Shown in pieces: positions 9,294 through 12,452 of a DNA stretch of 64,000 nt; within the stretch, counting starts at the first letter, position 1; each line of letters begins with the position of its first letter. This stretch comes from an uncultured Prochlorococcus sp. (lineage in GTDB: Bacteria > Cyanobacteriota > Cyanobacteriia > PCC-6307 > Cyanobiaceae). A program made the translations under genes and the position numbers. A model generated the notes under the pieces. It was not told the DNA's origin and made no database searches. It saw only the letters and a program-made list of their open reading frames with translations. Where the stretch lies: positions 1-64,000 of the forward strand of contig CACKJM010000004.1 of NCBI GenBank assembly GCA_902600475.1, read 5' to 3'.

Positions 9294-10469
9294 CTATAAC
9301 TCTTCAAAAATTGAATTTAGCTTATCCAAAAGAATATTAATTTCTCTTCGAGATATAACTAATGGTGGGACAATCCTTACAACATTTCCTCCTGCCGGAA
9401 CTACCAGTAACCCCTTATCAAAAGCTTTTAATGTAATTTTTTTTGCATCAGCATAATCTTCATTGATTACGAGGCCTTGTATTAAACCTAAACCTCTTTT
9501 ACCGGTAATAATATTAGGAAATTTTTTTGACAATTCTTCAAATCCAGCACTTAATTGTTCCCCTCTTAGATAAACATTATTGATAAGATTTCTTCTGTTT
9601 ATTTCTTCTAATACAGTTAGGGCAGCTTTACAGGCGAAAGGGTTACCCCCAAATGTACTAGCATGATCTCCTGGATAAAAAATATTGGCTTTTTCTTTTA
9701 CTAATAATGCTCCAATTGCATGACCTCCTCCTAATCCTTTAGCAAGGGTAAATCCATCAGGTTCAATTCCTAAATTCTCATAACCCCACATTTTCCCAGT
9801 TCGACCTACTCCACTTTGAACCTCATCTAAAATTAGGAGAGAATTATATTCATCACATATATCTCTCAGGCTTTTAAAAAATATTTTATTTCCAGGAATT
9901 ACGCCACCTTCACCTTGTATTGGTTCAACTAAAACTCCTGAAATTTTTTGATCATTATTATCACAATCTTCAAATAATTTTTTTACCGAATCAAAATTGT
10001 TAAATTTAAAAAATTTGAACCCTTGAATCAATGGTTCGAAGCCTTTTTGATATTTGGGCTGTCCAGTAGCACTCAATGCTGCCAGCGTCCTTCCATGAAA
10101 GCTGGATTCTGCGGCGAGAATAATTGATTCTTTACCCTTATGAATTCTATTACCATATTTTTTAATTAATTTAATTGCTGATTCATTTGCTTCCGCACCA
10201 CTGTTGCAGAAGAAGACACTTTTAGCACAACTAATATTTGTTAAAGTTCTGCTTAATTGTTCTTGTTCTTCAATGTTGTAGAGATTGGAAATGTGCTGAA
10301 TCTTTCTTAGTTGAGTTGATAGCCTTCTTCTTAAAACTCTATCGCTATGGCCAAGACTACAAGTTGCTATACCAGCTACTGCATCAAGATATTTTTTACC
10401 TTTTTTGTCCCAAAGCCAACAACCTCTTCCTTTTTTGAAAGATATATCGAATCTACTATAGGTATTCAT
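9294..10469 (-). CDS. argD: Acetylornithine aminotransferase
   Basis: PLP-dependent class III aminotransferase of arginine synthesis. The N-terminus NTYSRFDISF is characteristic of ArgD. Visible family features are the SGAEANESAIK segment, the pyridine-nitrogen aspartate in LILDEVQSGVGRTG, the Schiff-base lysine in TLAKGLGGG, and the STFGGNPFAC block. The start is the ATG at 10469, giving 391 residues; the frame stays open upstream, but only through the tRNA-Leu gene. That ATG is five bases after the tRNA 3' end and has no Shine-Dalgarno, so translation probably depends on the tRNA-linked transcript or is leaderless. The argF gene of the same pathway is at 47172. Confidence 0.95.
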   Translation of the reverse strand: MNTYSRFDISFKKGRGCWLWDKKGKKYLDAVAGIATCSLGHSDRVLRRRLSTQLRKIQHISNLYNIEEQEQLSRTLTNISCAKSVFFCNSGAEANESAIKLIKKYGNRIHKGKESIILAAESSFHGRTLAALSATGQPKYQKGFEPLIQGFKFFKFNNFDSVKKLFEDCDNNDQKISGVLVEPIQGEGGVIPGNKIFFKSLRDICDEYNSLLILDEVQSGVGRTGKMWGYENLGIEPDGFTLAKGLGGGHAIGALLVKEKANIFYPGDHASTFGGNPFACKAALTVLEEINRRNLINNVYLRGEQLSAGFEELSKKFPNIITGKRGLGLIQGLVINEDYADAKKITLKAFDKGLLVVPAGGNVVRIVPPLVISRREINILLDKLNSIFEEL

Positions 10470-10474
10470 CAAAG

Positions 10475-10556
10475 TGGGAGCGGTCGGACTTGAACCGACA
10501 TACCCGAAGGTGCCGCATTTTGAGTGCGGTGCGTCTACCAATTCCACCACGCTCCC
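10475..10556 (-). tRNA. tRNA-Leu (CAA)
   Basis: Class II tRNA with a long variable arm. The acceptor GGGAGCG pairs with CGCTCCC and the discriminator is A73. The anticodon stem CCGCA/TGCGG closes the loop CTCAAAA, giving anticodon CAA for UUG codons. The variable arm contains a CACCTTCGGGTA hairpin. CCA is not encoded. The argD ATG follows after only five bases. Confidence 0.95.
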
Positions 10557-10837
10557 AAGGCTTTTGCAAAAATGAACTTATTTTATTATAACAAAAATCA
10601 ACTCATTGACTATTGTTTTTGCTAATGAACAGCTATCAAGATAACGCTTGTTTATAGCTAAACTTTTTGCAAAAAAAATAGAATTATATTTATTGAATTT
10701 CTGACAATAATTAAGATTAAAATGGATTAATTAACATATATGATGCAATTATGTTACAGTTACCCAGTTTAAAACCTATTTACGGGAAGAAAACTTCATA
10801 TTCAGTAATATTATGTTATATTTATGGAAAACATTAA

Positions 10838-10945
10838 ATGTCTAAAATTAAAGCAAAAAAATTAACTTTAAGATTTGCTCCCTATCTTTTCATTGCAGTC
10901 ACAATTTTGACAGCATTTGGATCAAATAGTGGAACATGGGTATGA
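10838..10945 (+). CDS. Small single-helix membrane protein (35 aa)
   Basis: ATG at 10838 to TGA at 10943-10945. A basic N-terminus (KIKAKKLTLR) precedes one hydrophobic helix of about 17 residues (YLFIAVTILTAFG) and a short polar tail. This is the layout of the tiny subunits of photosystems, cytochrome b6f or NDH-1, but no known subunit is recognised. The stop overlaps the start of the next small gene (ATGA at 10942-10945), which argues that both are real. The pair lies alone on the plus strand between tRNA-Leu and murA. Confidence 0.6.
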   Translation: MSKIKAKKLTLRFAPYLFIAVTILTAFGSNSGTWV

Positions 10946-11052
10946 ATGATCTCAAGATTAGTGGTTTAAATAAAATTTGGTCTAGTCGCTTCTTAGTGTT
11001 GTTTCTCATATTTTTAGGCTGCATTTCACTTATTAATATTGCTTACGTTTAA
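10942..11052 (+). CDS. Small single-helix membrane protein (36 aa), coupled to the previous gene
   Basis: ATG at 10942 to TAA at 11050-11052. A polar N-terminus of about 16 residues is followed by a hydrophobic helix (FLVLFLIFLGCISLI) and a short end. Its ATG shares bases with the stop of the 35-residue gene upstream, so the two are translationally coupled and probably form a pair. A second ATG at 10946 is out of frame. Function unknown. It ends 30 bases from the convergent murA. Confidence 0.6.
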   Translation: MNDLKISGLNKIWSSRFLVLFLIFLGCISLINIAYV

Positions 11053-11081: not shown

Positions 11082-12452
11082 TTAGGCAGCTTTGTATCGA
11101 GGAATATCTGCAGGATCTGAACTAGTCTTAAATTCCTTATTTTTCAAAGTTCTTTTGTTAAACTCTCTGTTTATTTTTATACCCAATATTTTTAGTTTTG
11201 ATTCAAAATTTTCATAACCTCTATCCAAATGCTCTAAACCAAAAATTGTACTAGTTCCTTCAGCTATAATCCCAGCAATTATTAATGCAGCTGAAGACCT
11301 CAAATCAGATCCAACTAGATCCATCCCCTTAAATTTTTTAACACCTTTGATGTGAGCTATGTTTTTGTTTAATTTTATATTCGCCCCCATTTTGTTAAGT
11401 AGATGAACATGGTTCATTCTGTTTTCGAAAATTGTTTCTGTAATCTTTGATTCGCCATTTGCGATTGCCATTAAAGTTGTAAATGGTGCTTGCAAATCAG
11501 TTGGAAATCCTGGGAAAGGAGCTGTTTCAATATCTACCCCTTTGATCTTATTACAGTTGATTGTAATTGAATTACCTTTAATCGTAATTTTACTTCCACT
11601 CTCTTGAAGCTTATTCGTTACAGCTTCAAGATGATTAGGAATTACAGGAGAAATTGTTATCGAAGAGGAAGTCGCAGCAGCTGCTATTAAAAAAGTGCCA
11701 GCCTCTATTCGATCTGGAATTACTTTATGACTACAACCACACAGCTCATTAACACCATCAATAATTATTTTTTCTTTGCCAGAGTCGTAAATTTTTGCCC
11801 CCATTTTATTTAGCATTTGGCATAGATCCTGAATTTCAGGTTCTCTTGCAGCATTCTCAATCGTAGTTCTTCCCTCTGCTAATGATGCGGCCATTATTAA
11901 AGTTTCAGTAGCTCCTACGCTTGGGCACTTTAATTTGATATTGGTACCAATTAATCTGCTTTTACCTCCTTTTATATTTGCTTTGACAATTTCCTCTTCA
12001 ATAAGAATTTCCGCTCCTAGTGCTTTAAGCCCGTTAATGTGTTCATCTATTGGCCTTGAACCAATATTGCACCCTCCAGGCAAAGGGACTTTAGCCTCTC
12101 CAAATTTACTTAATAGTGGACCGATACAAAAGAAACTTGCTCTTAGTCCATTAACAAGTTCATATGGAAGTTCTTTGATAGAAATATTTTGTGAATCTAT
12201 CTCTAATTGATTGTTTTTTTCTACTATTTTAACCCCTAAATTTCTAAGGATATTAGCCATTTTTTCAATATCAGTGAGGCGAGGAACATTTTGCAGAACT
12301 ATTCTTTCATTAGTTAGTAATGATGCAGCAAGCAAAACTAAGGCCGAATTCTTCGCACCACTTATTTCAACGATTCCATTTAATTTGCCTTGGCCAAAAA
12401 TCTTTAAATTTTGTGATTTAAGATATGACTTATTTTTGCTGCCGCAAATCAT
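11082..12452 (-). CDS. murA: UDP-N-acetylglucosamine 1-carboxyvinyltransferase
   Basis: First committed enzyme of peptidoglycan synthesis; it transfers enolpyruvate from PEP to UDP-GlcNAc in the cytoplasm and is the target of fosfomycin. Two EPSP-synthase-like domains. The substrate-binding SGAKNSAL is at 31-38 and the catalytic loop PLPGGCNIGSRPID places the reactive cysteine at Cys128. The C-terminal EHLDRGYENFESKL stretch is typical. The 456 residues slightly exceed the usual 420, owing to N- and C-terminal tails. The minus-strand promoter should lie in 12453-12600. Confidence 0.96.
   Translation of the reverse strand: MICGSKNKSYLKSQNLKIFGQGKLNGIVEISGAKNSALVLLAASLLTNERIVLQNVPRLTDIEKMANILRNLGVKIVEKNNQLEIDSQNISIKELPYELVNGLRASFFCIGPLLSKFGEAKVPLPGGCNIGSRPIDEHINGLKALGAEILIEEEIVKANIKGGKSRLIGTNIKLKCPSVGATETLIMAASLAEGRTTIENAAREPEIQDLCQMLNKMGAKIYDSGKEKIIIDGVNELCGCSHKVIPDRIEAGTFLIAAAATSSSITISPVIPNHLEAVTNKLQESGSKITIKGNSITINCNKIKGVDIETAPFPGFPTDLQAPFTTLMAIANGESKITETIFENRMNHVHLLNKMGANIKLNKNIAHIKGVKKFKGMDLVGSDLRSSAALIIAGIIAEGTSTIFGLEHLDRGYENFESKLKILGIKINREFNKRTLKNKEFKTSSDPADIPRYKAA

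Follow-up and report, generated by a model that had tools for sequence, protein, structure and literature searches.

In a 64,000-nucleotide stretch of DNA from an uncultured Prochlorococcus sp. (hereinafter the window), two very short open reading frames, denoted A and B, are located on the plus strand (Table 1). The preliminary description of this region had reported two tiny frames that share an ATGA junction and stand alone amid minus-strand genes, and both observations hold: the genes for tRNA-Leu and an aminotransferase lie on one side of the pair, and murA lies on the other side. Judging from the sequences, we take the two protein-coding neighbors to be argD and murA. The mechanically compiled list of open reading frames starts B at position 10936; the ATG at this position is not conserved across the compared loci. 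The spacer upstream of A (window positions 10557-10804) extends for about 280 nt in an otherwise compact genome, with a nearly constant length in most loci, and shows good conservation at its ends only; in one locus (L056), an insertion has lengthened the distance from tRNA-Leu to ORF A to 1438 nt, compared with the usual about 280 nt. A 30-base A/T-rich stretch 5' of the pair (window positions 10702-10731) recurs elsewhere, at about 90 % identity, in several genomes.

Table 1 Features of the A/B locus and its neighborhood (coordinates in the window)
Feature	Position	Strand	Description
argD-like aminotransferase	9294-10469	-	start set at the ATG after the tRNA; the list of open reading frames has an earlier GTG
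tRNA-Leu(caa)	10474-10556	-	divergent neighbor of the pair
Core promoter block CTTCAT-17 nt-TATATT	10794-10822	+	conserved above its surroundings in a 36-locus alignment
Direct repeat GTAATATT-AT-GTTATATT, HLR1-like	10805-10822	+	overlaps the -10 box; at -33 from the start of A
ORF A	10838-10945	+	35 codons and TGA; Lys-rich N-terminus, one helix with PYLF; the TGA lies inside the ATGA overlap
ATGA stop-start overlap of A and B	10942-10945	+	4 nt; putative translational coupling
ORF B	10942 (ATG) to 11052 (TAA)	+	36 codons; WSxRFL followed by one helix running to the C-terminus
murA	11082-12452	-	convergent neighbor of the pair

When 266 genomes of the genus were searched at the DNA level, 219 contained similar DNA, some of it in the form of short chance matches, and in distant members of the genus the match narrows to the two ORFs. 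The pair was then read in 115 loci, one per genome (55 from the DNA searches and 60 fetched), which sample rather than exhaust the matching genomes; five further loci were dropped, either as contig-edge or chance matches without the pair (L050 and L058-L060) or, in the case of L061, as a repeat of L041. The overlap between A and B is 4 nt in 112 of the 115 loci and 10 nt in the other three, so that the stop-start overlap characteristic of a coupled pair has been maintained in evolution, which argues for joint synthesis of the two proteins at a fixed ratio. The lengths are nearly as stable, with 35 amino acids for A in 96 loci and 36 for B in 110, B being shortened to 34 in two. In both genes, the third codon positions are the most variable, and the Nei-Gojobori dN/dS values, computed by pS class, span 0.28-0.10 in A, for which 96 sequences were compared, and 0.24-0.12 in B, with 110 sequences. 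A and B are real genes that evolve under purifying selection.

Profile searches were run against 272 genomes of the family, at least 90 % complete except for the source genome of the window (83.6 %). Within the genus, B was identified in 79 of 88 genomes; outside it, the B profile yielded a single, chance-like match (G407, E 0.0086). The A profile produced strong matches in 79 genomes and weak ones in 17 more. Among the best 80 of the 161 relatives of B in named genomes, all are labelled Prochlorococcus or uncultured Synechococcaceae cyanobacterium, including the strains MIT 9302 and MIT 9314. Thus, the conservation in cyanobacterial relatives that the preliminary description had proposed to look for is apparent, and the pair does not extend beyond a single genus-level clade. 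Disrupted frames in relatives, which the same description had named as evidence against the genes, are rare: compared with the 79 genomes that possess the pair, there is one clean deletion (G120, see below), and in one of the 79 B is split over two frames (G193:C5:68990-69098), likely through a frameshift or a sequencing error.

Each of the two proteins contains one hydrophobic segment, with best 19-residue Kyte-Doolittle means of 1.72 for A and 2.59 for B, and AlphaFold models each as one helix (residues 4-29 of A, pLDDT 75.6; residues 3-35 of B, pLDDT 82.5), in full agreement with the single hydrophobic helix per protein that had been noted at the outset. The N-terminal side carries a net positive charge in all 115 A sequences and in 111 of the 115 B sequences, which under the positive-inside rule predicts for both proteins a topology with the positive N-terminus in the cytoplasm. 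A and B are unrelated, and the possibility that they are duplicates of each other was rejected (hhalign probability 0.2). Searches of Pfam and NCBIfam with A and B recovered no family beyond chance, and no chain in the PDB matched either protein at E values up to 1, so that neither can be assigned to the known one-helix subunits of PSI, PSII, b6f or NDH-1. The preliminary description had suggested that the pair might be subunits of a photosynthetic or respiratory membrane complex; for the known complexes this suggestion is unsupported given the lack of matches and the restriction of the pair to one clade, whereas the core one-helix subunits of PSI, PSII, b6f and NDH-1 are found across cyanobacteria.

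The evolutionary origin of the pair was traced through its genomic neighborhood. Nine of the 88 genomes of the genus lack B. In four of these (G024, G026, G105 and G120), murA is followed by tRNA-Leu(caa) with nothing of the pair in between; the other five (G018, G037, G041, G175 and G246) yielded no close murA, the matching contig of G037 stopping at this point, and are therefore uninformative on the absence of the pair. In two genomes of the genus g22 and in five genomes from other genera (G267, G269, G270, G272 and G274), murA adjoins tRNA-Leu(caa) as it does in the basal members of the genus, so that both these basal members and the other genera examined have the two genes side by side without the pair; G270 additionally contains a second murA-like locus (L227) without the tRNA. 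Of the 59 rows in a murA tree, the 48 with the pair form one group together with G120 (SH-aLRT 97), and accordingly two changes, one gain and one loss in G120, are enough to account for the distribution. In G120, the pair and its promoter have been cleanly deleted from the spacer (L207), the neighboring genes being whole, and the nearest row in the tree (G147) retains the pair. Because this is a quick tree in which long branches meet near the base, the position of the gain is less certain than its singleness. The genomes that we take to be those of MED4 (G033) and MIT9515 (G023) both belong to the pair-bearing group, which is therefore probably the high-light clade. On the murA tree, then, the pair was gained once, between murA and tRNA-Leu and close to the root of the high-light lineages of Prochlorococcus, and was lost once.

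Inside the promoter block upstream of A, the 36-locus alignment displays the direct repeat GTAATATT-NN-GTTATATT, that is, two 8-mers with a 10-bp period. The mRNA start is estimated to lie 6-9 nt past the promoter block, leaving a leader of about 10 nt. A consensus promoter scan identified 5 promoter-like sites against 4.6 expected, so the scan by itself is no evidence of a promoter. The repeat resembles the HLR1 element, the binding site of RpaB, which is given as KTTACAWW-N2-KTTACAWW and mediates repression when it overlaps the core promoter, according to two articles (PMC13421787, PMC6331805). The element of the pair matches the published consensus in 13 of the 16 positions, which is the chance level: with 3 mismatches, 98 occurrences are found in the window and 107 are expected, and among 3000 random window segments, 205 reach 13 of 16 positions, 24 reach 14 and none reaches 15. 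Words matching 14-15 of the 16 positions precede 5 of the 22 hli frames listed for the source genome and the presumed MED4 genome; in four cases the word lies at -30 to -34 and in the fifth at -52. Many of the other hli frames are inner genes of clusters.

With one mismatch allowed, the exact repeat is present at the pair in each of the six genomes searched and has no other occurrence in four of them, and hence was rejected as a regulon word. A relaxed pattern, KTWAYAWWNNKTWAYAWW, was detected at 6, 12 and 13 places in three genomes. Of these places, 3, 5 and 6, respectively, lie upstream of an hli frame at a distance of at most 140 nt, and each genome has one before the pair; most of the remaining ones are A/T-only words, and the genes that follow them include pth, argB and a 64-aa frame. 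The reversed-pattern control gives raw counts that are as high or higher, so it is the places of the pattern, not their number, that count as evidence. Given that the relaxed pattern was defined after the pair had been seen, a matrix built from hli words only provides a fairer test: the element of the pair scores 10.57 bits (14-20 for hli) and ranks 9th of 127,966 positions in the window, its score is reached at 3 of the 24,516 intergenic positions (under a strict ORF mask), and 1 of the 55 other gene starts scores above the pair. Near the start of A, the relaxed pattern is kept in 91 of the 115 loci and missing in 24. There is thus moderate evidence that the promoter of the pair carries a candidate HLR1-like element placed as it is before hli genes, and the pair is probably controlled by RpaB and derepressed in strong light. 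Elsewhere, a perfect relaxed HLR1-like word is found at -21 from a 64-aa frame that starts with MTRIIPYITFLCLTGF and is located near an hli cluster (L374; G033:C1:772194-772211); this frame is another candidate light-stress small protein.

The preliminary description had also pointed to a light-responsive transcript as a means of verification, and such a transcript very probably exists. In Prochlorococcus MED4, the ORF PMED4_14671, located opposite the 3'UTR of PMM1300, has been reported to be up-regulated 14-fold with rising light (Steglich et al. 2008; PMC2518516, sections examined). The adjacent number, PMM1301, has been annotated as an ornithine transaminase in MED4 (PMC2242806), and the PMM numbers given with coordinates in Table 1 of PMC2518516 place PMM1300 near 1.25 Mb. 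In this part of the genome that we take to be that of MED4 (1,657,990 bp), the order of genes is murA, the pair (convergent with murA and 8 bp from it), tRNA-Leu and the aminotransferase. Gene order, rather than a coordinate match, indicates that PMM1300 is murA and that PMED4_14671 is most probably A or B; through this identification, the pair is probably light-induced, a strong inference, and one of its ORFs was probably seen already in 2008. In the sections of that article examined, PMED4_14671 figures as one ORF, with no mention of a pair, the overlap, the clade restriction or the promoter repeat, and a full-text literature search that covered few subscription papers found neither the pair nor its overlap or clade restriction described.

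Two groups of known small proteins invite comparison. Similar to A and B, the high-light-inducible proteins (HLIPs) encoded by hli genes are short and contain one helix, and HLR1-like elements lie at a comparable distance upstream of their genes. However, HLIPs possess the chlorophyll-binding signature ExxNGRxAM, which was seen in the hli loci examined and is absent from the A and B alignments, and 32 members each of A and B gave no match to PF00504; we therefore reject the possibility that A and B belong to this one-helix LHC family. SliP4 (first named HliR1), a 37-aa protein of Synechocystis 6803, is described in the examined part of PMC12850537 as light-induced, controlled by RpaB and helping NDH-1 to associate with PSI or PSII. 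It shares with A and B the single predicted helix, the restriction to one lineage, the light induction and the RpaB control, the last two being probable for the pair; unlike the pair, it is encoded by a single gene upstream of sodB and is reported from Synechocystis only, and its N-terminal sequence, deduced from a primer only, does not resemble A or B. The best reading is that the pair is an analog of SliP4 and HLIPs, without being an HLIP and probably without kinship to SliP4.

Resemblance of a different kind was noticed between A and short Prochlorococcus 'LKxxPYxF' proteins, which comprise a 33-aa group (A3) and a 26-aa group (A4) and display the basic start and the PYxF helix typical of A. 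The hhalign probabilities of A against A3 and A4 are 95.5 and 95.0, respectively, values that are not independent because both groups were found by searching with A. Members of the two groups are encoded at other loci and have no overlapping B partner, and the 6 upstream regions inspected for the 33-aa group contained no HLR1-like element. Possibly, A and these groups represent a wider kind of protein organized around K-x-x-P-Y-x-F. A 33-aa one-helix protein that is weakly similar to A (MSKNN..LKVVPYIFISITAI...; center of L194-L203 and L206) is present in many genomes of the genus, with another short hydrophobic frame about 80 bp downstream. In the genus g22, a conserved 26-aa frame, MKLVPYIFMAVAIFSEVSTIATTPII, is found near PTOX-like and hli-like frames (center of L182-L191). 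Weak matches to residues 11-24 of A in 14 g22 genomes were rejected as orthologs because the 10 places fetched are devoid of tRNA-Leu and thus represent another locus; where the ORFs were printed, these places are near a gene that we take to be PTOX-like.

Several alternative explanations of the pair have to be weighed. The accidental occurrence of open frames within a non-coding RNA might account for the strong DNA conservation, and 89 unclassified transcripts have been reported in MED4, but the codon pattern, the stops and the overlap are conserved, no Rfam family was found in the ORFs, and the locus is not among the MED4 non-coding RNAs in Table 1 of PMC2518516, one of the sections examined, so this explanation is hardly credible. 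Two short overlapping ORFs with one-helix products are also reminiscent of toxin-antitoxin or phage-derived modules. Such a nature of the pair is very improbable given the fixed, single locus and the single gain: no PADLOC model matches A or B, PHROGs produced nothing for A and, for B, a chance-like best E value of 0.015 for one of 32 members, and scans of IMG/VR with both profiles together with tblastn searches of phage records revealed no phage or viral relative (a 24-residue phage match to B, E 2, was discarded).

The other two alternatives deserve more consideration, although we regard both as unlikely. A and B could be a two-part membrane regulator, as the preliminary description had also envisaged, or a pair of signal peptides, either of which might modulate, for instance, a protease, a transporter or a kinase in the membrane under stress, without involvement of a photosynthetic complex. 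Small one-helix proteins often act as membrane regulators, and neither the neighbors of the pair nor any other observation names a target; the light-type promoter and the light response, on the other hand, point, indirectly, to photosynthesis. Slightly less likely still, high-light Prochlorococcus might possess a photosynthetic or respiratory complex of its own in which the two proteins serve as constitutive accessory subunits, their light response being incidental. The size, the single helix, the purifying selection and the fixed stoichiometry implied by the overlap all fit structural subunits. Against this possibility stand the lack of matches among the solved chains, which include cyanobacterial photosystems and NDH-1, the clade restriction, the similarity of the promoter to hli promoters and, if the identification of PMED4_14671 holds, the 14-fold light response.

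The reading that we favor, to which we give about an even chance of being correct, is that A and B are co-translated one-helix proteins, induced by light through release of RpaB repression, that serve high-light acclimation at the photosynthetic membrane and were acquired in a single event. Under this scenario, A and B would be two subunits of one small membrane unit, translated from one short-leader mRNA in which the ATGA junction couples the translation of B to that of A. At moderate light, RpaB would occupy the HLR1-like repeat over the -10 box and block transcription; when light rises, RpaB would leave, and A and B would be made together and inserted into the membrane with the positive N-terminus in the cytoplasm. 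In the photosynthetic membrane, they might function as accessory proteins that reorganize a complex or protect it while the cell acclimates to high light. The single gain seen on the murA tree, close to the root of the high-light lineages, would mark the arrival of this unit between murA and tRNA-Leu. Whereas the genes, their overlap, the purifying selection, the single gain on the murA tree and the conservation of the promoter are established, the RpaB control, the topology, the partnership of A and B and their role in high-light acclimation are the inferred parts of this scheme. The origin in the high-light branch and a promoter resembling those of light-stress genes suggest that the pair probably helps the cell to cope with strong light, and an action on a photosynthetic complex is suggested by the analogy with SliP4.

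High-light Prochlorococcus are among the most abundant photosynthetic organisms, and their life in bright surface water has so far been explained mainly by gene counts, such as the hli expansion. The pair is a small but concrete candidate for a contribution to this lifestyle, being clade-specific, probably light-induced, encoded by overlapping genes and easily missed by annotation. Tentatively, and with rather more doubt than confidence, we suggest that it arose de novo, or by transfer without surviving relatives, when the high-light Prochlorococcus lineage first emerged, was wired to RpaB and became a new obligate one-helix hetero-oligomer that remodels or shields a photosynthetic complex. 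If so, the origin of this pair would be an identifiable molecular step in the move to bright surface water.
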